Part shown: positions 38,660-58,062 of the stretch, piece by piece
Position numbering within the stretch: position 1 is the first letter of the stretch
How the letters are laid out: each line of letters opens with the position of its first letter
DNA from: Actinomyces sp. zg-332
Lineage (GTDB): Bacteria > Actinomycetota > Actinomycetes > Actinomycetales > Actinomycetaceae
Direction: 5' to 3'
Assembly (NCBI RefSeq): GCF_011751945.2
Contig: NZ_CP064951.1
Coordinates: forward strand, 868,001-932,000
DNA length: 64,000 nucleotides
Program-made: the position numbers and the translations under genes
Notes under the pieces: generated by a model
Told to the model about the DNA's origin: nothing
The model's database searches: none
Seen by the model: the letters and a program-made list of their open reading frames with translations, nothing else

Positions 38660-39159
38660 CCATGGATATATTCTTTTAATATGGTTATCGAAATATAGGT
38701 AAAATTACCTTATTTTCCACTAACCGCAAACTTATTTCTTAGTCCAATTAACGGGAAACAGTTCAGTATGGTTGGGGTCTGAACATACTGATATCACGGT
38801 ATATTTCTCTCATGATACTGATTCAAGAATTTAGGTGACAAAATAGTTGGACTGGAACCATCAGAATCTACCTTCGTGACTAACTACGCTAGAAGTTACG
38901 CAACCTACGTAATGCTACCGCGTCACACTAGTAGAGGTCTTACCCTTCTTTCTCAGCGCCCCAGAGCATTGACTACAAGAAGAAGTCATAATTCTTATCT
39001 ACTGAATTTTAGTTTTTCGCACTTCTGCCCATCGAGTCGCGAAAAACTCCATTCTTCAAATAATACTTTTTACACTTCAATCTGAAAGGTTGATAATGTA
39101 ATATATACGAGGAAATGAGAATATTCAAGAAGTACAAATACTACTTGGAGGAGAATAAG
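38660..39159. other. Island-like intergenic region after tRNA-Gly
   Basis: About 500 bases without a convincing gene and visibly richer in G and C than the surroundings. A 10-bp inverted repeat (39011-39020/39039-39048, AGTTTTTCGC/GCGAAAAACT) is the only clear structure. I found no integrase and no copy of the tRNA 3' end in the following 3 kb. Confidence 0.4.
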
Positions 39160-40854
39160 GTGTTTCGTAAACTAATTGAGAAAAAAGTATTAACTTCTAT
39201 TATGATACTCTCTTTATTTGGAACGGGTCTGCTTGTGAATCCGATTCTGGTTCATCCATCGCCTCACGAAGATAACGTGCAGGCTGGCTTCAGTATCATC
39301 CAGCAGTTTCGGTTTGAGAAGAAATTGGACATGACTAATGCCCCTGACAGAACGAGGGTACCTAGACTCTCCGTTCCTTTTATACTCAGTGAGATACCGA
39401 AGGGCAAGGAAAAAGAATATGGCATCGGTAAATTTGCTGATGCGGGACAGGATTTTTTCATTCAAAAGGGTGAATTTAAATCAGGAAATGAAGCGGAATG
39501 GGAGGTAGTAACCTTCAACCCGGACGATGCTTATGACGAGAAGCTTACTGATTTAATAGATAATCATCCAGATAATGGGGGCGCCATATTGGATCACAAC
39601 ATAAGATATAACTGGGGAGGATTGAGGTCCAGTGATGGTGTTCAGACCGCACAGGCAGGCTATGATTCGAGCAAACCTGGAGACGATACTTATACAGAAG
39701 ATAGGCGTGGCTGGCCAAAGGACACTATTGCATGGCGTTGCTTCTATGAAGGTGGAGGGATAGGTGCCTTCGATGATGGCTGTCAGCTTCTGCTCGAGTA
39801 TTCTTTCGATACTTTCTTTTATTCTCAGGTCTATAATTTACGAGCAAATATAGCCGTGACCTATTATGCAACACCTGTACAAAGAACTTTGTTTACTCAT
39901 AAGGATGTTAATGCGGATGGAACTATCAATTCGGTATCCAAGTCTTTATGGCGTCCTAAGCCCGTCAGGGGAGGATATGTTGATGAGAATACAACAGATA
40001 CAGAGGCATTAAGAAAAGCTTTTAAGAGAGATTTTCTACAAGATGATATTCCAACATTTACAGAACTTTCGCATAAATTAAAGGATAGCTATACCACGTC
40101 AAATGGAGAGCCAAAAGACTACAGAATAAGGAGATACTTACTTCGAGAAGGGAAGCCTACAGGTGAAGATGCTGATCTGATTGCTTCTAATAATCAGGTC
40201 AAAATCGTTGATATATTAGATTATAACGATAATTTCATGATCTTTAACTCCGTAGAAGAAGCGGATGCATACTACGAGAATATCAGTTTGCAGGGTTTTA
40301 GCTCATACGATGATGTGCCAAACAGCTTTATCAAGCCTGTAACTTTTGTAAACAAATACAAGTCTGAAATTTCTATCAGCAAGGTGGATGAGAATGGCAA
40401 GCCTCTTGCAGGAGCGGAATTCGTAATCACGCCTAAGAATTCTGAAAAGGTAGTTGCAAACTGGACCAGTGACATGGATGTTAAGGCTCTAAGACTTGAT
40501 GAGGGAGATTATGTTCTTAAAGAGACAAAAACTCCTGAAAACTATGAAACATTCGGCGAATTCGGCTTCCATGTGGATAAGAACGGGTTAATTAAAGCGA
40601 CAGAAAACCATAAGAATGTAACCGTAGATGGTTCTAAACTTACAGTAAAGAACATCAAAATAAAAGTATCGCCAAAAGACAAGCCGAACAATCCACCAAA
40701 AGACGAGCCTAAAAAACCAAGCAATAAAACATTGCCAAAGACAGGAACAGATGGAGTTAATCTATCGCTGTATGTTGGATTAATGGCATTATCAGGTACA
40801 TTGTTATTGGGAATCGGAGCGTTAAAAGGACGTAAAGAAGAACATAGCCGATAA
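39160..40854 (+). CDS. LPXTG surface protein with a SpaA/CnaB-like domain
   Basis: 564 residues from GTG 39160, chosen for the strong GGAGG eight bases upstream; an in-frame ATG at 39115 has a poorly spaced RBS. Signal segment about 8-30. A large N-terminal region (about 40-395) of unknown fold has a PDRTRVPRLSVPFI start and acidic, Trp-containing stretches. A SpaA/CnaB-like domain follows (about 400-485: ISKVDENGKPLAGAEFV, LDEGDYVLKETKTPENY). A Pro/Lys-rich spacer precedes LPKTG (525-529), a membrane helix and a basic tail, so sortase anchors it to peptidoglycan. Composition and codon use differ from neighbours (Firmicutes-like), suggesting acquisition. Confidence 0.88.
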   Translation: MFRKLIEKKVLTSIMILSLFGTGLLVNPILVHPSPHEDNVQAGFSIIQQFRFEKKLDMTNAPDRTRVPRLSVPFILSEIPKGKEKEYGIGKFADAGQDFFIQKGEFKSGNEAEWEVVTFNPDDAYDEKLTDLIDNHPDNGGAILDHNIRYNWGGLRSSDGVQTAQAGYDSSKPGDDTYTEDRRGWPKDTIAWRCFYEGGGIGAFDDGCQLLLEYSFDTFFYSQVYNLRANIAVTYYATPVQRTLFTHKDVNADGTINSVSKSLWRPKPVRGGYVDENTTDTEALRKAFKRDFLQDDIPTFTELSHKLKDSYTTSNGEPKDYRIRRYLLREGKPTGEDADLIASNNQVKIVDILDYNDNFMIFNSVEEADAYYENISLQGFSSYDDVPNSFIKPVTFVNKYKSEISISKVDENGKPLAGAEFVITPKNSEKVVANWTSDMDVKALRLDEGDYVLKETKTPENYETFGEFGFHVDKNGLIKATENHKNVTVDGSKLTVKNIKIKVSPKDKPNNPPKDEPKKPSNKTLPKTGTDGVNLSLYVGLMALSGTLLLGIGALKGRKEEHSR

Positions 40855-44130: not shown

Positions 44131-45732
44131 GTGTTACGCAAAAAAGCATTCACTGCATTACTTGCCACCACTTTTTTAATGCTTTCAAGCATTATTACTG
44201 TTAACACGGCAAATGCAACAAATATTAAAACAAAGTCAGGTGATTTTTCATCTGGATGTGTTGTTTTATGGAAGACTAAAGCTGTTCTTGATAAGAATTT
44301 AAAAGATGATGACGCTGAATATCCAGGTTTAACAACTAGGCTTGATGGTTCGCCAGTCATTTACTCAAATGCTGGTTACATTTCAGAAGTTACTCCATCT
44401 CTTGGAGGAAAAGGAATATTTGAAGCAAACCACTTCTTTACTTATAATCCAGATAAACAAAACTGGCGTTTTCCACTAGCTACTGATCACACAATTAAAG
44501 CTGGCACAAAAGTTAATGTTGATTTGCCAGACGATATGACAAATACTGTTTTTGATCGTGTATCAACAAATGAGCGTATGTCTACTTGGGGTGAACCATA
44601 CGCTAAATACACTTGGTCCTCATATGACGCATCAAAACTCGAAGCTGTACAAACAGATGTTGCTAAGAATATTTGGACTCTTACATTCAAGAAAGACATA
44701 CCTGCTGGACACGCAACCGTTTTCCAGTTCACTGGTGACGGTAACACAAATGGTCGTTACGTAGCATCTGCTGAACTTGAAGGTGCATATAATGAAGGTG
44801 AAGGTACATGTCAGTATGATAAAGACAAGTTACCAAAGCTACCTCCTGCACCTAGCGAATCAAAATGTAAAGTTGCTTTACTTGGCCGTACTGTTTGGAG
44901 TCCATACGGTTCAGATATTACAAGTCGTGAAAAGTTTGTTTCAAACTGGAAGACACCAGCTGATGGTTGGGGTGAAGTCAACGCTGACGGTTGGGGTCTA
45001 GGTAGCGATGGCTGGGCAAATGATGGCAAAACAGCTACCCTACGCCTATATGGTGCAGTAGATAAAGATTTCCAAGGAGGAACATATACTGCAACTATTG
45101 CTCAGAATGCTGTTTTCAAAGCAGGATCGGTCAATACTTTCGTATCACCTGGAGCAGGAGCGCTTAAAGGTAATGGTTACACCAATGTTGTAAAAGATGC
45201 TACTGAGCCAACTATTTCACCAGATGGAAAAACTATCACTTTCAAGATTGGCAAACTACCGGCAAAATCCTCTTTCTCATTTAACGTAACTGTTCAATTT
45301 TTACGTGATGTTAAAGATGATACAACTGGACAGATTCTACCTATGGTCATTCATGAAAAGATGGAAATGTCCTCAGATAAGTGCGAACAGACTGTTGAAA
45401 CTAGCAAGTGGAGTGAAGAAGTTCCAACTTGTGAAAATCCAAAAGTTACTCAAACTCGCACAGTGACAACCACTCCATATGTTTGGGACGAAGATAAACA
45501 AATGTGGACTACTGGTGAACCAATTGTAAAGACTGAACGTCGTATCGTAAGTCTAAAAGCTACAGCACATTGCTCTAAAGAAGTTACTCCTAATGAACCT
45601 ACTTCCAAGAAGTCTGTTCCTAAGGCAAAACTGGCTGCAACAGGTATTGATACGTCAATTACTGTCACAGGTGCTGGAATTCTAGTATTTGCTGGTGCAT
45701 TGCTTTTAGCCATGCGTCGTAAGCAAGATTAA
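44131..45732 (+). CDS. Sortase-anchored surface protein with LAATG motif
   Basis: 533 residues from GTG 44131, with the AGGGGGG RBS ten bases upstream. Signal peptide about 1-29 (ending NTANA). The body (about 30-490) is beta-rich with paired Cys and Trp/Gly-rich stretches (DGWGLGSDGW); two similar halves (about 30-230 and 245-425) look like adhesin modules. A final segment has TQTRTVTTTPYVWDE. The tail is LAATG (501-505), a membrane helix and RRKQD. LAxTG is the substrate motif of class E sortases of Actinobacteria, unlike the LPKTG of the upstream protein. Native base composition. Substrate for adhesion unknown. Confidence 0.85.
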   Translation: MLRKKAFTALLATTFLMLSSIITVNTANATNIKTKSGDFSSGCVVLWKTKAVLDKNLKDDDAEYPGLTTRLDGSPVIYSNAGYISEVTPSLGGKGIFEANHFFTYNPDKQNWRFPLATDHTIKAGTKVNVDLPDDMTNTVFDRVSTNERMSTWGEPYAKYTWSSYDASKLEAVQTDVAKNIWTLTFKKDIPAGHATVFQFTGDGNTNGRYVASAELEGAYNEGEGTCQYDKDKLPKLPPAPSESKCKVALLGRTVWSPYGSDITSREKFVSNWKTPADGWGEVNADGWGLGSDGWANDGKTATLRLYGAVDKDFQGGTYTATIAQNAVFKAGSVNTFVSPGAGALKGNGYTNVVKDATEPTISPDGKTITFKIGKLPAKSSFSFNVTVQFLRDVKDDTTGQILPMVIHEKMEMSSDKCEQTVETSKWSEEVPTCENPKVTQTRTVTTTPYVWDEDKQMWTTGEPIVKTERRIVSLKATAHCSKEVTPNEPTSKKSVPKAKLAATGIDTSITVTGAGILVFAGALLLAMRRKQD

Positions 45733-45764
45733 AATCATATTTTAATTTTCTTTTAGAGAATTTT

Positions 45765-45800
45765 AGGGGCTAAACTGCACTTAATGTATGTTTAGCCCCT
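45765..45800 (+). terminator. Rho-independent terminator of the LAATG gene
   Basis: Arms 45765-45775 and 45790-45800 (AGGGGCTAAAC/GTTTAGCCCCT) form a perfect 11-bp stem followed by TTACTTTT. Confidence 0.85.
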
Positions 45801-46616
45801 TTACTTTTCCATCTTTTTAGTACACGAAGTTATACTTGAAACCCCATGTTTGGGATCGTTTTCTTTTTTTATTTCGTTTTATTCTCTAATTTTTATTTCA
45901 AGGATTCAATCATGTTTGCAATAGATTTTGCATTCGTTCTTATTGAAAAAACACTTATGTGAAGTTTTTTAGAATATATTGATTTAGATATTTAATAAGG
46001 ACAATCCACATAGTAAATATGAAAAAAGATATACTGTACTGCTTATTATAATTACCGTTGACGTCACATTCTCATATATTATTTAGGAAAAATTTGTAGA
46101 AAATCTTACACATATGCAAAAGATACTACGCGCACTACACCTTAGCCCACTTCTCCCCTACGCGTTTTATTTCAAAACTTTATAGTTCACTATAGGCGGT
46201 ATTGTTTTAGCCATACTTTTATAAGAAGCATGCACTATTAAAATCACTAGTAGTAAAAGACAACAAAATAGCTAGACGTACAAATTTTTATATCAATAGA
46301 TAAATTTATACTTATGTATATAAAAATAGCTACTTAATTTCTGTCTATTTTTATGTAGGATATATATTTCCCAACATTTAACTTTGAAACTATGCCACAA
46401 ATATACAATTTTAAACCAAAGATATATTTGCTTCATATAAGTTTTTACTTAATACAATGATTAAGCTAATCTTAAAGTATCACAGATTTCACTATTTAAT
46501 AATTTTTTATATAACAGTAGCTAATTTTTCTAGTAATATTTTCAACCATTTAAATTTATAGACAAGTAAGTAGATAGTAAATAAAAAAGTAAATACTTAA
46601 ATAGAAACGAGTGCTC
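45801..46616. other. AT-rich intergenic region upstream of the ATP-grasp operon
   Basis: About 800 bases without a gene I can support. A short minus-strand frame at about 46170-46220 (MAKTIPPIVNYKVLK) ends quickly and may be gene debris. The operon promoter must lie near 46500-46600 but I cannot choose one. Confidence 0.4.
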
Positions 46617-47462
46617 ATGAGTATTGGAATATCTTCTGGTACATACGGAGAACTTTGGCAAGGTCCTTGGATGGACAATAAAGGAATACCACATATTGCA
46701 ATTCTTACCTTCCCATCCGTACTTTATTCAACAGTAAAATTAGAACTTATTCCTAAAAACTCTATTAAAAAACCTTGTCCTATACCTAGTAAAAGCAGAA
46801 AAGCATTATTAAAAGTAATTAAAAAATTTCAGCTTGACACAAAAATTGATAATTACCACTGGAGTAGAAAAACAGAGTTGTTAACAAGTGTAGGTATGTC
46901 TAGCTCCACAGCAGATATAATTTCTACTATCAAAGCTGTCGCAAATATACATAATATATTGCTAAAACCAAATGATTTTCAAGAAATTTTGCTAGGAATC
47001 GAAAGATCTGATCCAAAAATGCTCGTAGCTGGAATAGGCAGTGCAATACCATTTGAAAATATAGACTATTCTTCGTATGAGTACATTCATTGGATAGCTT
47101 CATCACTAGCAGTAAATGGCGGAATTAACTTACTGAAAGAATCTGGAGTTTTTGGAGGTTTATCCACTGGAGCCACGTATATAGTAGCAAAATATCTTTC
47201 TCATAAAAATCCAAATAATATTTATATAATGCCATCAGCAGATACTGGACATCGGTATATAAAAGTATACGAAGAACACTACCACTCTGAGGATATACCT
47301 GAACCACTTTTTATAAACAGAAAAGAAGAGCTTACGATGCCATGGTCGTATACAGCTTGGAGTGAAAAATCTTTTCCTTATTTCATTAATGAATACTCTA
47401 ATTCTAAAAATATTTATAAATGTTCTACCTCATACTATAACAAAACTGGAGATTCGAGATGA
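46617..47462 (+). CDS. Chimera: PduX-like (GHMP) kinase N-half fused to cysteine-synthase-family C-half
   Basis: 281 residues from ATG 46617 (a GTG two codons earlier is possible). Residues 2-135 are a GHMP kinase of the PduX L-threonine kinase type: GTYGELWQG (8-16), the ATP motif GMSSSTADI (93-101) and IERSDPKM (128-135). From residue 136 it matches the C-terminal part of PLP fold-type II enzymes: LVAGIGSAIPFEN, EYIHWIASS, GVFGGLSTGA (177-186), SADTGHRY (207-214). Both families are normally about 300 or more residues. Here the kinase C-half and the PLP N-half, with its Schiff-base Lys, are missing. An in-frame deletion joining two neighbouring genes near 47020 is the simplest explanation. 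It overlaps the next gene by 4 bases. Confidence 0.75.
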   Translation: MSIGISSGTYGELWQGPWMDNKGIPHIAILTFPSVLYSTVKLELIPKNSIKKPCPIPSKSRKALLKVIKKFQLDTKIDNYHWSRKTELLTSVGMSSSTADIISTIKAVANIHNILLKPNDFQEILLGIERSDPKMLVAGIGSAIPFENIDYSSYEYIHWIASSLAVNGGINLLKESGVFGGLSTGATYIVAKYLSHKNPNNIYIMPSADTGHRYIKVYEEHYHSEDIPEPLFINRKEELTMPWSYTAWSEKSFPYFINEYSNSKNIYKCSTSYYNKTGDSR

Positions 47463-48598
47463 CACCAAAAACTTTAGTAGCATTAGAGGCAATGTCAAAT
47501 GTAAACGTAATGGCTGATATAACAAATGAATACGGATATAATTTCACTTTACTAACTTACGATCCAAGTTTATATTCAGGACTAGAAAACGTAAACGTTG
47601 TCGTATTACAAACCCATGACTCTTCAAAAGTAGAAGAGTATGTACAAGAAAATATAGACACTATTTACAATATTTTCAGCGTTACAGACACTTGGGGTCT
47701 ACTAGCAGCAAGACTACGAGAAAAGTATGCTTTCCCTTCTTTCATTAAAAGTCAAGACCTCACACAGTTCAGAAATAAAAGTTGGGTACAATCTAAAATA
47801 GAGAATTTCCAACAAGAAACAAATATAGGTTGGCCAAGAATTTGCAAACCTATAAATGGTACAGGCAAAATCGGTGTAAAGCTTTTATATTCAGAAGAAG
47901 AGTATAAAAAATTTATAGCAGAAATAGATGATCACAATGAGTATATGACACAACCTTTCTACAAAGGTCCACTTTACTCAGCTGAAGTTTGGAAAAGCAA
48001 AGACAACTTCACATTTTTTGGTATAACTAATTGTATTATTTCCAAACCACCATTTTTTCTTGAAGAAACAAAAGCTTTTCCTTGGGCAGCTAATTCATCT
48101 TGGGAAAACAGTGTAAAAGAATGGACTCTTAGTATCTTAGAAACATTAAACTACAACTTGGGTTTAGCACATATAGAGTTCATTGAAAGTAGTGACGGTT
48201 TCAAACTTATTGAGATAAATGCTCGAATGGCAGGGGCTTTAATCACTCCGAGCATATTAGAAAGTACTAATTATAATCCGTACCGTTACACAGTGGAACA
48301 AGCAATCGGTATAACTCCAAGTATCCCTATAGAAAGGCAAATATATAAGGGATATGCTCACACTAGTATTTATGCTCATAAAACTGGCTATATACAATCA
48401 ATTTCTGGTTTAGAAGAGATAAAAAACTATCCTGGTAATCCTACTTGGTTTCCATCAAAAAGCATAAAAGAAAAAGTAAGAGAAATTGGCACCTATAAAG
48501 CTAGAATAGGAAATTTACTTGTAACTGCACCAACTGCTGAGTTGGCACAAGATAGAGCAATTACTATAGCAAGTCATATAGAGGTGGAAATTGAGTAA
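47459..48598 (+). CDS. ATP-grasp ligase 1 (L-amino-acid ligase-like)
   Basis: 379 residues. The ATP-grasp fold shows in WPRICKPINGTGKIGVKLL (about 125-143, ATP-binding Lys and Gly loop), the middle strand EYMTQPFYKGPLYSAEVW, and the metal-binding EINARMAGALITPS (about 256-269). This is the group that includes carnosine synthase and BacD-type dipeptide ligases, which activate a carboxylate as acyl phosphate and join it to an amine. Its ATG overlaps the previous stop (ATGA), and the MFS gene overlaps its end. Substrates unknown. Confidence 0.88.
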   Translation: MTPKTLVALEAMSNVNVMADITNEYGYNFTLLTYDPSLYSGLENVNVVVLQTHDSSKVEEYVQENIDTIYNIFSVTDTWGLLAARLREKYAFPSFIKSQDLTQFRNKSWVQSKIENFQQETNIGWPRICKPINGTGKIGVKLLYSEEEYKKFIAEIDDHNEYMTQPFYKGPLYSAEVWKSKDNFTFFGITNCIISKPPFFLEETKAFPWAANSSWENSVKEWTLSILETLNYNLGLAHIEFIESSDGFKLIEINARMAGALITPSILESTNYNPYRYTVEQAIGITPSIPIERQIYKGYAHTSIYAHKTGYIQSISGLEEIKNYPGNPTWFPSKSIKEKVREIGTYKARIGNLLVTAPTAELAQDRAITIASHIEVEIE

Positions 48599-49826
48599 TT
48601 TAGTTTCTAAGCCCGTTTCAGTCAGCACTACCCTATTAATGGTTAGCATTTGTATATCGGGAATCACAACTTTTATGTTATACCCTCTACTAACTATTAA
48701 CCTTTTAAAATACGGACTATCAACAAAAGAAATAGGACTAGTTTTAGGTGTTCTTGGAGGTATAGGCTCTATTTTGTCACTTTTAATTGGATTCATAAAT
48801 GAAAAAATTGGCTCTAAACCTGTTGCAGTATTTGGATTACTTTTGCGTTCAGCTGGAATGAGTGTTTTCATTTGGGAAAACGACTTTTTATTGTACATAC
48901 TTGGAGCTAGTATAGCTTCTATAGGTAGTTCTTCAACAGCACTAGCTTTAAAAACAGAGCTTCTTCGACGATCTACTAATCGCAGATTAATAACTATTCG
49001 TTCAATTGCTATTAATCTTGGCGCAACAACTGGACCTATGATTGGTGCAGCTTTGTATTGGAAATTCGATTTTAGTTTTATCGTTGAATGCTCAATTGCT
49101 TCTTATATACTACTAGCAATAATTATCTCCTTAATACATTTTAATCCTAGCGAATCTTCGTTTCAAAAGAAAAATCAAAGTAAACTACCTGACAATAGGA
49201 AAAATATAAAAATAAATACGCAAAGTACTAATAAATCACTTATAGAAAAGAAAGTATTATATTCAATTTTAGGTTTAACAGCTATCTATTGGATTATTTA
49301 CTCCCAATGGGCAATTATTGTTCCTATACTTGCAAAAGAAGCATTAAATGAAAAATTTGGATCTGGTTTTATATATTCATTAAATGCTATAACCATACTT
49401 ATTTTACAGTACCCGATTTTAGTTCATGCTTTTAAAAATATAAGAGATTCATTTATACTATTCACAGGCTTTGTACTAATAATGTTCTCAAGTATCCTTT
49501 TACTGTTACCTATTTCATGGGTAATTGTTATTTTATTCGCAATTATTTTTACTTTTGGTGAAATGCTTATCAGCCCTACCTTAGATTCTATTACTGCCAA
49601 AGCAAGTGCTAAAAATCGTAATTTAACAAGAACTTTTGGATTTACAACTTGTATATGTGGTATAGCTTCCTTATTAGGATCATTTTTAATTGGTTTACTT
49701 ATTTCAATACATAACTATACATCCGACATACTATTCCTAACAATTCCAACAACCTGTTTAGCATTGATACTTTCAATGTTCATTGTACGAAACGAGGTAA
49801 ACGAAAATGAACTTGTTACTAATTAA
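48591..49826 (+). CDS. MFS transporter, probable exporter of the operon product
   Basis: 411 residues with about twelve membrane segments and a charged central loop (about 185-220, QKKNQSKLPDNRKN), the layout of the major facilitator superfamily. The loop between TM2 and TM3 reads GFINEKIGSKPVAVFG, matching the MFS motif A region. The start is TTG 48591, supported by GAGGTGG four bases upstream, and overlaps the preceding ligase by 8 bases. It overlaps the next ligase by 20 bases. In bacilysin loci an MFS protein (BacE) exports the dipeptide made by an ATP-grasp ligase; the same role is inferred here. Confidence 0.85.
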   Translation: MSNLVSKPVSVSTTLLMVSICISGITTFMLYPLLTINLLKYGLSTKEIGLVLGVLGGIGSILSLLIGFINEKIGSKPVAVFGLLLRSAGMSVFIWENDFLLYILGASIASIGSSSTALALKTELLRRSTNRRLITIRSIAINLGATTGPMIGAALYWKFDFSFIVECSIASYILLAIIISLIHFNPSESSFQKKNQSKLPDNRKNIKINTQSTNKSLIEKKVLYSILGLTAIYWIIYSQWAIIVPILAKEALNEKFGSGFIYSLNAITILILQYPILVHAFKNIRDSFILFTGFVLIMFSSILLLLPISWVIVILFAIIFTFGEMLISPTLDSITAKASAKNRNLTRTFGFTTCICGIASLLGSFLIGLLISIHNYTSDILFLTIPTTCLALILSMFIVRNEVNENELVTN

Positions 49827-50943
49827 TCCACGTGAAGAAGTAATAAAATCTGCATTACAAGCCGGTAGTACACCAATAGTAATTTTGTCATGTGATAGCG
49901 AAAAAGATTTCATAACAAAATATGGTATTCAACTTATCCACTGTGACAATACACTTGATCCTTTAGTTATTACTAGAGCAATTATTAACGTAGGTATAAA
50001 ACCGTGTGATGCTAATACTGTTTGTATTGGTTTTGGTGATGACACATCACAAGTGGCTTCTTTAGTAAACTCTTCCATGAATTTTGCCAATGGAAAGTAC
50101 TCTCACGTTTTCGAACTTGAGCTAATGCGAAATAAACCTCTTTTTCGATCTTTAGTAAATAAAAATCTTGCCTATCTATCTGGTAATTTCAAAGTTATAT
50201 CAGTTAAAAGCCAACTATTGGAAACATTTATTGACTTTGGAAATAAAGGCGTTGTTGCTAAGCCTCTTTATGGTTCAGGAAGTAAAAATGTTCAAAGATT
50301 TGATAATATCTCAAAGTTGCAAAATTCACTAGATTCGCTCTCCTTCCCTTTGCTTGTAGAAGAAGTATTTCATGGCAAAGAGTACTCGGTAGAAACTTTA
50401 TCTTGGGATGGCAAGCATTATCCAATAATAGTTACAGAAAAAGTAACAGGTGGTGTAAGTGGCTTAGTCGAAATCGCTCAAAAACAACCTGCTTCAATTT
50501 CTTATAAACAAAAGGAAGCACTTTTTACTGCAGCTTCTAATATATTAAACCTTGTTGGATACAAGTTTGGTCTATCTCACATTGAATTTATGATAAATGA
50601 AGAATCAGTAAAGGTTATTGAAGCCCATGGACGTGTAGGCGGAGATAGAATAGCTGATTTAATGGGATACTCCACAGGAATGAACGCTTTCGAAAGGCTT
50701 TTTAGAGCCTATGAAAATGACAATGTAGATGAAATAAAATACACCTCTAAAGAAGCATCAATACATTTCGTTGAACTAACTGATGAAAAAGTACAAGATA
50801 GTGATTGGCTAAAAACTGTACTTTCTAAAAATGATGTTGTAGATGCACAAATATTACTCCCTAAAGAAAAACGTGGAAGTATTTTATCTTCAAAAGACAG
50901 ACACGCATTTTACATTTGTATTTCAGATGGTGAAGAAAACTAG
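49807..50943 (+). CDS. ATP-grasp ligase 2
   Basis: 378 residues. An N-terminal Rossmann-like domain precedes ATP-grasp motifs: GVVAKPLYGSGSKNVQRF (about 152-169), LLVEEVFHGKEYSVE (about 180-195), and the metal site VIEAHGRVGGDRIADLMG (about 276-293). His replaces the usual Asn in the last motif (E-x-N-x-R), a variation known in peptide-forming ATP-grasp proteins. It resembles ligase 1 only distantly, so it probably performs a different bond-forming step. Confidence 0.87.
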   Translation: MNLLLINPREEVIKSALQAGSTPIVILSCDSEKDFITKYGIQLIHCDNTLDPLVITRAIINVGIKPCDANTVCIGFGDDTSQVASLVNSSMNFANGKYSHVFELELMRNKPLFRSLVNKNLAYLSGNFKVISVKSQLLETFIDFGNKGVVAKPLYGSGSKNVQRFDNISKLQNSLDSLSFPLLVEEVFHGKEYSVETLSWDGKHYPIIVTEKVTGGVSGLVEIAQKQPASISYKQKEALFTAASNILNLVGYKFGLSHIEFMINEESVKVIEAHGRVGGDRIADLMGYSTGMNAFERLFRAYENDNVDEIKYTSKEASIHFVELTDEKVQDSDWLKTVLSKNDVVDAQILLPKEKRGSILSSKDRHAFYICISDGEEN

Positions 50944-50962
50944 ATTATGAAAAGGTAGTACC

Positions 50963-51937
50963 ATGAAAATTTTAGTTTTAGTTCTGCAAAGTGATTTTTA
51001 TGAACCAGTAAATAACTTCTTTATCCCACAATCATTAACCGAATTAAACCACAGTGTTTTTCTTGGTGATGTAAATTCACTACAAATATTAAACGGGCAA
51101 GTCATTACACGTATCGCAAAATTTAAAAACTCTAAAGTAGGCGAAAAACATGTTTTTATGGAAGAGTACCATTCTTGCGAAGATTTTGATTTATGTTGGT
51201 TACTTGATTATTCTCATCCTAATAAAATAGATGACTTTTTCCGTATTCTATGGGTACTAGAAGGACGTATAAAGTTTGTAAACTTACCATCTTCTATTTT
51301 CTTTCTTAATAATAAGATTGGTATGCAAAGACTTTCAGAAAGCAAGTTTTACAATAACAGTGTTCTACTCGACAGCGATAAAATAGTATCCATAGTAGAT
51401 AAATCACCTCCAGAAGAAAAGTGGGTAATTAAAGCACCTAATAAAGGATGTGGTGCTGATGTTTTTGTCTTACATTCTGAAGATAAAAACAAAAAAGCAA
51501 TAATTGAATCAGCTGTAGGTAATCCTAAACAACTGTATGAGATGTATGGTAAAACAATACATGGCTTTGCTGAGCAATACGCAGTCTTACAAAAATATAT
51601 TCCTAATTTAGACAAAACAGAAAGTAGAGTTTTGCTCGCTGGAGGAAAAATATTAGGCGGTTATAGAAAAATACCTGCTAAAGGAGATTTTAGGGGTAAT
51701 TATCTCATTGGCGGTAAATGTACTCCACTTGAGCTTAACAACGATACACAAAATTTATCACTAAAAATTGCTAAAGAATTAATGAAGTTTGGAATCAACT
51801 TTGCAGGAATTGACATAGCATATCCTCATCTTATTGAACTAAATTTAGTAAATCCAGGAGGAATAAGCGGACATTTAGAAGCAACAGGTGAAGATATCGG
51901 TAAAGAAGTTTGCAAAGCAGTTTTGGAAAAAGTATGA
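50963..51937 (+). CDS. ATP-grasp ligase 3, glutathione synthetase-like
   Basis: 324 residues. GshB-type features: an N-terminal domain with FVNLPSSIFFLNNKIGMQRL (about 114-133, like the NxPxxxxxxNxK region), ATP lysine in WVIKAPNKGCGADVFVL, RVLLAGGKILGGYRKIPAKG and FRGNYLIGGK (the glycine-rich loop), and the metal site GIDIAYPHLIELNLVNPGG (about 289-307). GshB joins glycine to gamma-glutamyl-cysteine. It ends the operon, so it may add the last residue of a short peptide (inference). There is a 19-base gap from ligase 2 with RBS AAAGG. Confidence 0.88.
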   Translation: MKILVLVLQSDFYEPVNNFFIPQSLTELNHSVFLGDVNSLQILNGQVITRIAKFKNSKVGEKHVFMEEYHSCEDFDLCWLLDYSHPNKIDDFFRILWVLEGRIKFVNLPSSIFFLNNKIGMQRLSESKFYNNSVLLDSDKIVSIVDKSPPEEKWVIKAPNKGCGADVFVLHSEDKNKKAIIESAVGNPKQLYEMYGKTIHGFAEQYAVLQKYIPNLDKTESRVLLAGGKILGGYRKIPAKGDFRGNYLIGGKCTPLELNNDTQNLSLKIAKELMKFGINFAGIDIAYPHLIELNLVNPGGISGHLEATGEDIGKEVCKAVLEKV

Positions 51938-53350: not shown

Positions 53351-55030
53351 ATGCCTAGCAAAATCACACATATAACTTCTAATATCAATGATGACTTAGA
53401 TACTTGCGTGTTTGATATAAAAATATCTGATAACCTGCTACAAACTCTTACTCCTACTATTGAGTCAATAGTTTCAAATAAGATTGCTTCTAGAATAAAA
53501 GCAAAAGACTATACAATCTGGGGAAAAGATGCTGAGGAGGAATCTAAGAAAAGACTAGGTTGGGTCGATGCAGCTAGTAAAGCAGAAAATTTTATAAAAG
53601 ATTTATACGAGTATAAAAAACTTCTCTCTGAGCGTGGTTTATCTAGAGTAGTTTTAGCTGGTATGGGTGGTTCATCTCTAGCTCCTGAAGTTATATGTAA
53701 TGTTTATCAAAAAGATATAGTTATACTTGATTCTACTAACCCTGAGCAAGTACAAAACACTTTAGTAGATTTAGAAAAAACCGTATTAGTCGTATCTTCT
53801 AAATCTGGCTCAACTGTTGAAACTGACAGCGCATTACATACTTTTGAACAAGCTTTTAATGCAAAAAACTTAGATTCGTCTAAACACATAGTTATAGTTA
53901 CAGATCCAATGAGTCCTTTTGAACAATATGCTAACGAAAAGGGCTATAAAGTTTTTCATGGTGATATACAAGTCGGTGGTCGTTTTTCAGCACTTACTGC
54001 TTTTGGACTGCTGCCTTCTTACCTAGCTGGTGTAAATGTAGAATCTATTGTCAATGACGCTGATAAAACTAGTGAGTTGGTATACAGAGATTTTGATGCA
54101 AACCCTGCAATAATACTAGGCGCAGCTTTATCAGCAAGCGTTCTAAAACAAGGGTCAAGTTCTGCTGATAAGACCTTGCTAGTTGATACTGCTAGCGGAC
54201 TAGCTAACTTTGCTGATTGGGCTGAACAATTAATAGCAGAATCATCAGGGAAAATAGGCAAAAGTATTCTACCAATAGTATGCTCTGAACCAACTGAATT
54301 AGCATATAACTTACACGATGTACTACCTGTATATATTTCAGGTACACAAGAATGTGCTTTTACAGATAGAGTTAACCAGCATATCGAAGTCACAGGTAGT
54401 TTAGGTGCTCAGTTCTTAGTATGGGAAGTTGCTACAGCCATAGCTTGTTATGTTATAGGAGTAAATCCTTTCGATCAGCCTAACGTAGAATCAGCAAAAG
54501 TAGCTAGCCGTGAAATATTAGCAAATATGGATAAGGCAACAGATAGCAACTCTTACGATATAGTACAATTACAAGCTTTCAACCTAGGTACGCCAAATAT
54601 TTCTTCAGAAAATTTTGAAGATGTAGATTCTGTTTTACACTCACTATTTTCCAATGTTAAAGATGACTCTTATTTAGCTGTAATGATATATGGTGACAGA
54701 ATTAGTTATAGCGATAGCGTATCTACTCTTAGGCAAGAGCTTGTAAATAAGCTTAAACGTCCTGTTACTATTGGTTGGGGACCTCGTTTCTTGCATTCTA
54801 CTGGGCAACTACACAAAGGCGGAGCAAAAAATGGAGTATTCTTACAGATACAAATCGATAGCACTACTGCCCTAGAGGTTGTAGGAAAAGACTTTACTTA
54901 CAACGATTTAGTAACTGCACAAGCAGTTGGAGATTTCAAAGTTCTAGCCGATTTAAAGTTACCAGTAGTTAGAATTAAATGTAAAAATGATAAAGTATTC
55001 AAAGACTTATGTAACCTAATAACTAACTAA
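53351..55030 (+). CDS. pgi: Glucose-6-phosphate isomerase
   Basis: 559 residues. The sugar-isomerase domains show VVLAGMGGSSLAPEV (about 98-112), the phosphate-binding SSKSGSTVETDSA (about 157-169), and the C-terminal WGPRFLHSTGQLHKGGAKNG (about 475-494), which contains the catalytic His/Lys region. This is the divergent PGI type common in Actinobacteria. It interconverts glucose-6-P and fructose-6-P. GGAG lies seven bases before the ATG. It is monocistronic with its own terminator. Confidence 0.88.
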   Translation: MPSKITHITSNINDDLDTCVFDIKISDNLLQTLTPTIESIVSNKIASRIKAKDYTIWGKDAEEESKKRLGWVDAASKAENFIKDLYEYKKLLSERGLSRVVLAGMGGSSLAPEVICNVYQKDIVILDSTNPEQVQNTLVDLEKTVLVVSSKSGSTVETDSALHTFEQAFNAKNLDSSKHIVIVTDPMSPFEQYANEKGYKVFHGDIQVGGRFSALTAFGLLPSYLAGVNVESIVNDADKTSELVYRDFDANPAIILGAALSASVLKQGSSSADKTLLVDTASGLANFADWAEQLIAESSGKIGKSILPIVCSEPTELAYNLHDVLPVYISGTQECAFTDRVNQHIEVTGSLGAQFLVWEVATAIACYVIGVNPFDQPNVESAKVASREILANMDKATDSNSYDIVQLQAFNLGTPNISSENFEDVDSVLHSLFSNVKDDSYLAVMIYGDRISYSDSVSTLRQELVNKLKRPVTIGWGPRFLHSTGQLHKGGAKNGVFLQIQIDSTTALEVVGKDFTYNDLVTAQAVGDFKVLADLKLPVVRIKCKNDKVFKDLCNLITN

Positions 55031-55147: not shown

Positions 55148-55365
55148 GAATAATTATTCATAAAAGTCGTATAATCATTCGCCATTTCATGAATAAATAT
55201 GTATAAAAAATTTCAAAAACTTGCAACAAATATCTAAAAACAAGATAAAAAGTATTGATTTTCTAGTAATTTTAAGCATATTTTTTCAAATTTCTTGCAT
55301 AAAAATACATAAACTTGCATTTTTTTATTGCATATAAATACATACGGATGCATAATTACTCATGG
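55148..55365 (+). promoter_or_regulatory. ARG-box-like operator array ahead of the ABC transporter
   Basis: Four 18-base copies of TTGCATaaaaATaCAT-type sequence begin at 55295, 55315, 55328 and 55348, the outer pairs spaced 20 bases (two helical turns): for example TTGCATAAAAATACATAA and TTGCATATAAATACATAC. Further upstream are the 12-base palindrome GAATAATTATTC (55148-55159) and CATGAATAAATATGTAT (from 55188), close to the B. subtilis ARG box. ArgR hexamers bind such pairs. ArgR (6158-6667) is the obvious candidate regulator. The last copy ends 20 bases before the start codon, overlapping the expected promoter. Confidence 0.55.
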
Positions 55366-55384
55366 GAGAATAAAAGGAGGGAAT

Positions 55385-56287
55385 ATGAATAAGAGTATAA
55401 GAGCTCTTGCAGCTTGTCTCATTAGCATATTCACACTTACAGGATGTAGTTCTTTTACAGCAGAAGAATTATCTGGTAAAAATCTGGGATATGATACTTC
55501 AACCATAAAAGAAGTAAAGGAAATATCAAACCTAGTACCAGAAAAAATACGTACCAAAGGTTTACTAAATATTGGTACCTCAGCAGGTTATGCACCAGCA
55601 GTTATATTTGCCGACGATGGCGAAAGTATTGTTGGATACGACAAAGATGTTTCTGAAGCAATTAGTAATATACTGGGGTTAAAAGCAAAAGTTGTACATG
55701 CACCTTTTGATACGTTACTTCCATCTGTTGGATCAAAATTTGATATGGCTATTGGCGCTTTTACAATCACACAAGAGCGCACAAAACAAAAGAATATGAT
55801 TTCTTACATAAAAGCAGGATCAATGTTTGCAGTAGCAAAAGGAAATCCTAAAAAAGTTAAATATAACGATTTATGTGGCACAACGATTGGCGTTCAATTA
55901 GGTACTTACCAAATGCATGATGTTCCAAAAATGTCAAAGAAATGCATTAAAAAAGGAAAAGACCCAATTACTTTAGCTCCTTACGATCTACAAGCAAAAA
56001 TCGTACCAAGCTTAATTGGTTTAAAACTTGACGTAATGTATGCAGATTCACCAGTAGTTGGATATGCTATCCAAAAAACAGATGGCAAAATCGAACAGCT
56101 CGGTGGGATCTTTGACGAGACATTAAACGGAATTGTAGTAGACAAAGACAAACAACTAACTGACGCTATCCAAAAAGCAACACAATATCTCATTGACAAC
56201 GGCGTTCTAGAGAAAATAATGAGCAAATGGGGTGTTGAAAAAGTTGTAGTTGAAAAAGCAATCGTAAATCCTAAAGTAGAAAACTAA
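55385..56287 (+). CDS. Amino-acid ABC transporter, substrate-binding lipoprotein
   Basis: 300 residues from ATG 55385 (RBS AAGGAGGG; the frame extends upstream to a TTG that lacks one). The lipobox LTGC (about 18-21) follows a signal sequence, so Lgt lipidates Cys21. The mature part is an SBP_bac_3 domain (about 58-285), with GLLNIGTSAGYAPAVIF, FDMAIGAFTITQERTKQ and VGVQLGTY-type segments (TTIGVQLGTYQ). It captures polar amino acids. ARG-box-like sites upstream point to arginine or another basic amino acid (inference). Confidence 0.9.
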   Translation: MNKSIRALAACLISIFTLTGCSSFTAEELSGKNLGYDTSTIKEVKEISNLVPEKIRTKGLLNIGTSAGYAPAVIFADDGESIVGYDKDVSEAISNILGLKAKVVHAPFDTLLPSVGSKFDMAIGAFTITQERTKQKNMISYIKAGSMFAVAKGNPKKVKYNDLCGTTIGVQLGTYQMHDVPKMSKKCIKKGKDPITLAPYDLQAKIVPSLIGLKLDVMYADSPVVGYAIQKTDGKIEQLGGIFDETLNGIVVDKDKQLTDAIQKATQYLIDNGVLEKIMSKWGVEKVVVEKAIVNPKVEN

Positions 56288-56293
56288 AGAAAA

Positions 56294-57250
56294 ATGAGCA
56301 TACAAGATAAACCAACTGAAATTTTGAAAGCTCGTCCAGTGCCAAAAACTGGACAAATAATTTCAGCAGTAGTAGTAGCATTACTAGTGATAATAGTTAT
56401 TAAATCATTATTCACGAACCCTAATTTCCAATGGAATCTAGTAGGAAAATATATGTTCCATCCACTAGTATTATCTGGTGTAAAATATACAATCCTATTA
56501 ACAATTGGAGCAATGCTAATTGGTATAGTAATAGCATTAACAATGGCAATAATGCGCCAATCATCAAACCCAATTATGAGTAGTGTAGCGTGGTTTTACA
56601 TTTGGTTCTTCAGAGGAACACCTGTTTATACACAGCTGGTATTCTGGGGACTAATTTCTGTTCTATACCCTCGCATTTCTTTAGGGGTTCCTTTTGGTCC
56701 AGAGTTCTTTACATTCAACACAGCTGACGTAATTACAGCTGGTATTGCAGCTCTACTAGGCCTAGGGTTAAACGAAGGTGCTTATTTATCAGAAATCTTC
56801 CGCGCAGGATTAAATTCGGTAGATGAAGGACAATGGGAAGCTGGAAAAGTCTTAGGTATGAAGAAAGGATTAATTCTACGTAGAATAGTTATCCCTCAAG
56901 CAATGCGTGTTATTGTTCCACCAATTGGTAATGAAACAATATCAATGCTAAAGACAACTTCCCTAGTGTTAGCTGTACCGTTTACGCTAGATCTTACATT
57001 CGAAGCTTCAAATATCGGTAACCGCATATTCGCTCCAATACCGCTACTGATTGTTGCAGCACTATGGTACATACTAATCACCTCTATATTAATGATAGGA
57101 CAGTACTTTTTAGAACGTCACTATGGTAGGGGCTTTGATAAAGACGACAATAGTTCCAAAAAAGAAAAGCGTTTATCTAAGAAACAAATTGAATCTTTGC
57201 AAAACAAAATGCTAGAAGACTTTTATAGAGTTAACAGAGAGGGTAGGTAA
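56294..57250 (+). CDS. Amino-acid ABC transporter permease (HisM family)
   Basis: 318 residues with about six membrane segments (first at about 18-38). The EAA loop contacting the ATPase reads [20 protein letters not shown] (about 182-201). [15 protein letters not shown] is the typical start of the HisM core. The C-terminal 45 residues are charged and cytosolic. It starts six bases after the binding protein ends. Confidence 0.92.
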
Positions 57251-57255
57251 ACAAA

Positions 57256-58062
57256 ATGAGTGAAAAAGAAAAGTTTTGTCCACCAGAAACCTCAATGATA
57301 TGTGCAGTAAACGTCCATAAATTCTTTGGCGATAAGCATATTCTAAAAGATATAAACCTTACTGTACATAAAGGAGAAGTAGTTGTTCTTCTAGGCCCTA
57401 GTGGTTCAGGTAAATCCACTTTACTAAGGTGCTTCAACGAATTAGAAGAAGTAACTGCAGGGCGTATATGGATAAATGGTGAACTACTTGGAATACGTGA
57501 AGTAGAAAAAGACGGAGAAGTAATCCCTCACAAGTTATCTGATAAAGAAATAGCTAAACAGCGTACTCAGATTGGAATGGTATTCCAAAGGTTCAATTTG
57601 TTCCCTCACATGACAGCTTTAGAAAACGTTATGGAAGCACCAATTCGAGTAAAGAAAATGTCCAAAGACAAAGCTCGAGAAATTGCTTTGAAACAGCTAG
57701 AGCTGGTAGATATGGATGACAGATGTGATTACTATCCATCACAGTTATCAGGTGGACAGCAGCAGCGTATTGCTATTGCTAGAGCTTTAGCAATGGAACC
57801 TGAGCTAATGCTGTTTGATGAACCAACTTCAGCTTTGGATCCAGAACTAGTCGGTGAAGTTCTAAAGGTAATGAAAATTCTAGCAAAATCCGGTATGACT
57901 ATGGTTGTGGTTACACATGAAATGGGCTTTGCTAGAGAAGCAGCTGACTACGTCGTATTTATGGATGAAGGAATGATTATTGAGCAAGCTGAACCAAATG
58001 AGCTATTCGATAATCCAAAACACAAACGTGTACAAAGTTTCTTCTCAAAGGTTATTAAGTAA
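57256..58062 (+). CDS. Amino-acid ABC transporter ATP-binding protein (GlnQ/HisP family)
   Basis: 268 residues. Walker [11 protein letters not shown] (about 51-60), Q-loop in [19 protein letters not shown], signature [15 protein letters not shown], Walker [17 protein letters not shown] and switch His in [16 protein letters not shown]. It powers uptake by the preceding permease. The start lies 6 bases after the permease stop, and a terminator closes the operon. Confidence 0.94.

Follow-up and report, generated by a model that had tools for sequence, protein, structure and literature searches.

Can peptide ligases and an exporter still make a product when the gene ahead of them holds only parts of two enzymes? 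The question is raised by five genes, A to E, in a 64,000-nucleotide stretch of the genome of Actinomyces sp. zg-332 (contig NZ_CP064951.1, positions 868,001 to 932,000; hereafter the window). An earlier reading of this DNA from its letters alone, here called the sequence-only reading, had described five overlapping or nearly touching genes, in which three different ATP-grasp ligases, the last of them GshB-like, and a protein of the major facilitator superfamily (MFS) follow a gene for a kinase and a pyridoxal phosphate (PLP) enzyme. All five open reading frames are present as claimed, tightly packed on the + strand and with their coordinates confirmed, and Pfam domains bear out the three ligases and the MFS protein of this compact set; the interpretation as a whole is partly supported. 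We think it fairly probable that A to E are an operon for synthesis and export of a short peptide, independent of nonribosomal peptide synthetases (NRPS), whose product no longer depends on gene A.

46611-47462, + strand: gene A, which joins kinase and PLP enzyme parts; an internal ATG at 46617 is the start used in the sequence-only reading
47459-48598, + strand: gene B, 379 amino acids (aa), ATP-grasp of the L-amino-acid-ligase type
48591-49826, + strand: gene C, 411 aa, MFS transporter, probable exporter; the first start is TTG and the true start may differ
49807-50943, + strand: gene D, 378 aa, second ATP-grasp ligase
50963-51937, + strand: gene E, 324 aa, third ligase, GshB/RimK-like ATP-grasp

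The stop of A overlaps the start of B as ATGA, B and C overlap by 8 bases and C and D by 20, while 19 bases separate D from E; because of this spacing, A to E probably form one transcription unit. Codon composition supports the reading frame in all five genes, including both halves of A.

Judged by its sequence, gene A is an in-frame deletion chimera of two enzymes, neither of which is whole:

46611-47009, + strand: first part of gene A, about residues 1-133, the first half of a GHMP-superfamily kinase, with GELxQG and GMSSSTAD stretches
47010-47462, + strand: second part of gene A, about residues 134-283, the C-terminal part of an SbnA/CysK-like PLP enzyme

Pfam places GHMP_kinases_N on the N-terminal part (E 1e-5), and the similarity to SbnA/CysK falls on the later part, both in the better NCBIfam matches and against the PDB; the SbnA match is weak (TIGR03945, residues 137-222, 28.1 bits against a cut-off of 349.95). 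We built hidden Markov models (HMMs) from eight related kinases and from eleven whole PLP enzymes of relatives, and when each protein was left out in turn, the HMM of the others recognised it (8/8 kinases and 11/11 PLP proteins, E 2.3e-28 or better). With these models, residues 4-138 of gene A correspond to positions 23-158 of 312 in the kinase HMM, short of a full-length GHMP kinase, and residues 86-258 to positions 158-333 of 338 in the PLP HMM. Residues 86-138 match both models, the glycine/serine-rich loops being alike in the two families; the junction was put by eye near 'SDP', at about residues 133-135, a position that is not exact.

Gene A lacks the kinase's second half, and of the PLP enzyme it lacks the N-terminal part. 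The latter part holds an F..MK motif in all eleven whole PLP relatives, which in one of them aligns with the SMK of SbnA (5d87), and whose lysine we take to be the PLP-binding lysine of an SbnA-type enzyme. Since each half lacks an essential part, gene A can hardly serve as a kinase or as a PLP enzyme and is probably devoid of enzyme activity; a bifunctional kinase/PLP enzyme is for the same reason rejected as its identity. The earlier label 'kinase/PLP gene' was thus right in domain content and wrong as to an enzyme, about half of each being present, and the non-protein amino acid that might have come from this step is not supported, as the lysine-bearing part and the second half of the kinase are gone. 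In eight relatives (S. clavifer, P. agglomerans, SGAir0924, S. melanogenes, Tsukamurella, R. gallicum, Sulfuriferula and ITFR-16) a kinase gene and then a PLP gene stand separate and adjacent, in the same order as the two parts of gene A. It may matter that the deletion stayed in frame: because the stop of A overlaps the start of B, translation of the two is probably coupled. A single-sequence AlphaFold model of gene A has a predicted local distance difference test (pLDDT) score of 31 and, without an alignment, says little. A candidate for a decayed second SbnA elsewhere in the genome, a match with 8 internal stops, was rejected, being an open cysK-like gene whose end the match overran; this gene adjoins one that reads as cysE, both being named by reading.

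Judged by the families and folds of the other four genes, the two ligases of L-amino-acid-ligase character, B and D, which flank C, would link amino acids or short peptides, as would the GshB-like E, and C would export the product. Gene B carries the L-amino acid ligase domain LAL_C2 (E 1.5e-11) together with ATP-grasp_4, has the conserved residues E240, E252 and N254, and is 45-47% identical to five relatives in the family. Its AlphaFold model, from five sequences, reaches a pLDDT of 83.7, and the nearest solved fold is the L-amino acid ligase 3vot (TMq 0.81); further matches are RizA (TMq 0.67) and, lower in the list with many carboxylases between, BacD (3vmm, TMq 0.74). Gene C matches MFS_1 (E 1e-33). 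Gene D, with ATP-grasp_4 (E 3e-10), has E-x-H-x-R at the place of gene B's E-x-N-x-R; the residues concerned (E272, H274 and R276) are kept in G155, a second genome of the family, and in S. globosus, and its profile matches 3vot in the PDB, and BacD weakly. Gene E has the GshB-type ATP-grasp domain GSH-S_ATP (E 4.6e-23) and is 33-37% identical to proteins of Streptomyces and Pantoea plasmids; its D284, E292 and N294, which we take to be the GshB metal ligands, are invariant among five proteins. Candidate ATP-grasp metal-site residues are kept in both D and E. Glutathione synthase was rejected as the identity of gene E, at 103.4 against 272 bits (PRK05246) and 96.5 against 299 (TIGR01380).

Our best argument that the core no longer needs gene A is that three genomes have kept B-C-D although their A is either disrupted or not detected. 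In G155, B-C-D is intact and in the same order, preceded by an N-terminal stub of the kinase and then an out-of-frame remnant of the PLP C-terminal part (E 1.3e-4 and 3.3e-6, Z=100). G155 has thus lost the same middle stretch of A as the window, and more, either in one shared event or in two separate ones. In G1105, from another family, B-C-D is again intact and in order, and no trace of gene A was found in the roughly 2 kb upstream. All three proteins are full-length with conserved motifs across the three genomes, at 36-48% identity: relative to the window, B is 48% identical in G155 and 43% in G1105, C 42% and 41%, and D 36% and 39%.

Among the 213 genomes of the family, gene A matches the window only (at 1e-4). 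Gene B matches eight at 1e-10, six of them strongly (the window, G174, G155, G074, G181 and G133) and two at domain level, gene D matches 15 at 1e-8 (strongly only in the window and G155) and gene E three at 1e-8 (strongly only in the window). A contig search with the B sequence alone gave no match and one with the B alignment gave four. In the order as a whole, gene D matches 6 of 243 genomes at 1e-40, namely the window, G1105 (328 bits) and four at 152-182 bits. A limited number of candidates was scored per genome (e.g. 5, 7 or 12), so that such counts are lower bounds. Locus inspection covered the order-wide D matches except G995 and G1094, and from the record searches 4 of 160 matches, 8 of 163 (the gene E search), 11 of 18 (7 rhizobial ones being left out) and 1 of 33. 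Two loci (L015 and L016, from G032 and G129) were compared by BLAST only, and two others (L047 and L048) show no such operon by annotation; a third (L049) carries none.

A comparable gene order recurs in Streptomyces. At 1e-40, gene E matches 6 of 295 genomes of a genus that we take to be Streptomyces, since the match in G704 agrees in its coordinates with the S. xanthii plasmid. A PLP enzyme, an ATP-grasp protein (X), an MFS protein, D and E follow each other in this order on the S. globosus plasmid NZ_CP030864.1 and in three of these six genomes, G847, G675 and G733. The MFS, D and E proteins are 25-27%, 27-28% and 35-37% identical to the window's C, D and E, which we call related, and the PLP enzyme is related to the second part of gene A. 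The window thus shares the order of enzyme classes; the Streptomyces operons differ in having X and not B in the second slot, and a whole PLP gene, which the window lacks at its front. The X proteins of S. globosus and G847 share 97% identity and those of G733 and G675 96%, against 70% for S. globosus compared with G733; the four therefore represent two Streptomyces lineages. No kinase gene was found in the fetched loci of these operons. Co-occurrence across genomes, the check put forward with the sequence-only reading, comes out in its favour: the recurrence of B-C-D in G155 and G1105, and of PLP enzyme, ATP-grasp, MFS, D and E in four Streptomyces loci, means that the set is not a product of chance.

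Other arrangements are found as well, among them those of the remaining three of the six genomes, G704, G886 and G636. G704 (S. xanthii) has a PLP enzyme, a B-type ligase, another ATP-grasp and an MFS protein, with X and E further on, and G886 has only E among the operon genes. In P. agglomerans the order is kinase, PLP enzyme, ATP-grasp, E, MFS, M17 peptidase and methyltransferase, while further kinase and PLP relatives adjoin an ATP-grasp and a lyase, annotated in two of three cases as argininosuccinate lyase. At G636 (L067:11589-13585) the PLP gene is split over two frames, the second portion continuing into a piece of an E-like GshB gene; this is either one more rearranged family member or an error of assembly. 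A large cluster on an S. xanthii plasmid (L045:622-18999) combines a methylaspartate mutase, a PLP enzyme and ATP-grasps of B, D-like and X type with a 2,4-diaminobutyrate (DABA) aminotransferase and an aspartate kinase, and it also encodes a TauD dioxygenase and a GshB-like ligase. The NBC_01591 plasmid (L040) shows the same order, with matches to PLP, B, D-like, MFS, X and E. Gene C gave no match to the plasmids at 1e-15, although the S. globosus plasmid carries a related MFS protein; the low-complexity filter, with which the pairwise E value goes from 1e-26 to 3e-15, is the likely reason. The proB/proC genes next to the operon of G733 and G675 we do not assign to the pathway: proB is a second copy here too, but it is divergent and stands beside betaine/osmolyte-like genes (a nature read from the protein starts), and we provisionally count it as a neighbour.

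In the wider operon family to which we assign these genes, a GHMP kinase and/or an SbnA-like PLP enzyme is encoded ahead of the ligases. The kinase would phosphorylate serine or threonine, and the PLP enzyme would swap the phosphate for another group to give a beta-substituted alanine, reactions that we carry over by assumption from serine/threonine kinases and SbnA. B and D would then make one bond each and E a third, by analogy with the phosphonoalamide pathway, and C would export the result. In the window, the product would be made without gene A. The earlier estimate of up to four building blocks stands as an upper bound set by the number of enzymes; it does not follow that the ligases act in series, because of the six family genomes in which B matches strongly, four have none of A, C, D and E nearby.

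Several observations weigh against this proposal. The loci fetched from G155 and G1105 (20 kb for G1105) showed no gene E, which in a sample of 396 genomes of the phylum matches at 1e-30 only the window itself. For the four family genomes just mentioned (G174, G074, G181 and G133), the 20 kb fetched contain B and nothing that matches kinase, PLP, MFS or E; here the D model gives cross-matches to B and a single 25-bit match (L013:22-3165). A D-like or E-like gene also occurs without the operon, in G1047, one of the four weaker D matches, with no such operon in the 20 kb fetched, and in L046, which has only an E-like gene within its 31 kb. The second slot of the Streptomyces operons is of a different type, X being 19-21% identical to B over 110-204 residues. 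Finally, the frame of gene A is open for 283 codons, which has a chance of about 1.6e-10 in unordered sequence of the same composition; because it is open, with coding-like codon use on both sides of the junction, either the deletion happened recently or the protein has been retained for some purpose.

If the deletion is recent, the whole operon might be decaying, with the precursor genes lost, the ligases and exporter left without a substrate, and B to E intact only because too little time has passed. The disruption of gene A and the further erosion of its remnant in G155 would fit, as would the small genome (1.54 Mb, a single contig, 99.4% complete), which together with its lack of a HisG match is in keeping with reductive evolution. 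We nevertheless regard decay as unlikely, although it survives best among the alternatives: B, C and D are full-length in the window, in G155 and in G1105, despite an A that is in each case either damaged or not detected, which suggests long retention without it, and the B genes without partners are full-length too, in four genomes.

If instead the protein is kept, the chimera might be a working protein in a new role, for instance a regulator, a binder of phospho-amino acids or a subunit of a ligase complex. The in-frame junction and the open frame with coding bias on both sides are what such a protein would leave. Such a protein would, however, have neither the PLP lysine nor the kinase's second half, and A is broken and out of frame in G155 and undetected in G1105, both of which keep B-C-D, so that we find a working chimera decidedly doubtful, and prefer an operon whose core runs without gene A.

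Upstream of the operon lies a stretch in which its promoter is probably sited:

45733-46610, strand not assigned: AT-rich intergenic stretch of 878 bp upstream of the operon, with no open reading frame of at least 100 aa

A consensus scan found no terminator-like sites, and 27 promoter-like sites against 33.6 in shuffles; the GC content of the operon is similar to that of its surroundings. Beyond the intergenic stretch the upstream neighbour is a surface protein with an LPXTG-type anchor. Two such LPXTG-anchored proteins are encoded, at 39115-40854 and 44131-45732, the first with a SpaA domain (pilin-like). Downstream follow xerD on the opposite strand, a phosphoglucose isomerase gene and, at 55328-58062, an importer of the ATP-binding cassette (ABC) type with a family-3 binding protein (SBP_bac_3, amino-acid type), a permease and an ATPase. 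The phosphoglucose isomerase-like protein (53351-55030) stands alone; its best NCBIfam match is the isomerase part (385-932) of a bifunctional transaldolase/phosphoglucose isomerase model, under the model's cut-off. None of the scanned flanking genes is clearly part of the pathway, and the importer may or may not be linked to the operon's product.

Kinase and PLP genes also occur in a different setting. On two Streptomyces plasmids and one Tsukamurella plasmid (L051:1127-9026, L052:1801-8999 and L053:2317-8999), a GHMP kinase gene and an SbnA-like PLP gene stand by an iron-type ABC importer, DUF364 and an MFS gene, in what looks like a minimal metallophore locus.

A product that scavenges metal, and not an antibiotic, might be read from these associations, since in SGAir0924, S. 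melanogenes and Tsukamurella relatives of the kinase and PLP genes have DUF364, an MFS gene and an iron-type ABC importer as neighbours, the PLP and B-type genes of NBC_00648 adjoin an iron-type ABC importer, SbnA with SbnB makes L-2,3-diaminopropionate (L-Dap) for staphyloferrin B according to the part of the source cited (PMC3179956), and the window has its own ABC importer past xerD and the isomerase. We consider a metallophore the most improbable of the alternatives, because that importer's binding protein is SBP_bac_3 and not of iron type, with two unrelated genes between it and the operon, no DUF364 occurs among the scanned flanking genes of the window, the loci of SGAir0924, S. melanogenes and Tsukamurella lack B, D and E as far as fetched, and the genes that they share with the window's operon are the very ones damaged there.

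How, then, does the operon compare with described systems? In the open-licence PMC literature, covered at the level of titles and abstract openings, we found no characterised pathway with this gene set, in agreement with the sequence-only reading, and no described product for the Streptomyces operon of PLP enzyme, X, MFS, D and E. Bacilysin, the model invoked in that reading, is alike in having an L-amino-acid-ligase-type ATP-grasp gene adjacent to an MFS gene (BacD-BacE; here B/C and C/D overlap). It differs in having one ligase, where the window has three ligase-like proteins, and in its anticapsin precursor enzymes, none of which is recognised among the window's five genes; BacE and the bacilysin/anticapsin precursor genes enter this comparison as background, with presumed identities.

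The phosphonoalamide pathway has two ATP-grasp ligases, PnaB and PnaC, of which one forms a dipeptide and one joins a dipeptide to an unusual amino acid, together with transporter genes, as described in the part of the source cited (PMC11867202). The window resembles it in combining ATP-grasp ligases with a transporter gene in one cluster; it differs in that phosphonoalanine is there made from phosphoenolpyruvate by PnaD and the aminotransferase PnaA (PMC11867202, same part), and neither type is among the window's five genes. Pantoea agglomerans Eh318 has a seven-gene cluster with an MFS transporter and an 'ATP-grasp/glutathione synthase', a likeness by description, in the part cited of PMC4010436. 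The same description sets it apart by homologues of pnp1B-D, a sulfotransferase and an aminotransferase, and we rejected Pantoea PNP-1 as a relative for the other enzymes described for it (PMC4010436, same part). With staphyloferrin B the window shares the SbnA/CysK family of the second part of gene A (PMC3179956, in part); it differs in having only part of an SbnA-like protein and no SbnB-like gene in the operon.

One Streptomyces lineage offers a clue of another kind. In G733 (L065:15787-18015) and G675 (L064:810-3037) a 460-aa protein and then a hisG gene come directly after E, a further difference from the window; by our own gene calling, on which the starts rest, E overlaps the start of the 460-aa protein and hisG follows after 3 bases in G733 and 2 in G675. 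The G733 copy of the 460-aa protein gave no family match. A further hisG, 79-80% identical, is present elsewhere in each of the two genomes, while G847 and G704 have one hisG each. A search of 199 genomes of the genus gave a hisG match at 1e-60 in 198, and two matches in at least three (G675, G733 and G677), with at most 12 candidates scored per genome and G677 being an assembly of 1140 contigs. The linked hisG, in a linkage that rests on one lineage, hints at histidine biosynthesis as the product's target, with self-protection, or at histidine as a building block. The window's genome gave no match to the Streptomyces HisG at 1e-10, a search that a very different HisG could escape, and its organism may be without the usual histidine route. 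In the same literature as above we found nothing that links hisG with self-resistance in this sense.

From these pieces we speculate on a kind of exported, NRPS-independent peptide that has so far gone undescribed, with a beta-substituted alanine as a warhead that mimics histidine. A spare HisG would protect the producer in the one Streptomyces lineage, and members of the Actinomycetales including the window would have lost the genes for the warhead and turned two ligases and the exporter to the making of a different peptide. As a whole this is a long shot.

Should the preferred reading be true, namely that A to E make and export a short peptide without gene A, peptide operons of this kind would occur in scattered places, some of them on plasmids, in Streptomyces, in the window's family and in a further family of the same order. 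They would combine two to three ligases with an export gene, and we found no described product for them in the literature covered. The linked second hisG in Streptomyces would be a testable lead to the target or to a building block of such peptides. For the window, the damaged gene A suggests that a core of ligases and exporter can persist without a special precursor, which calls for caution in reading the function of a cluster from its list of genes.

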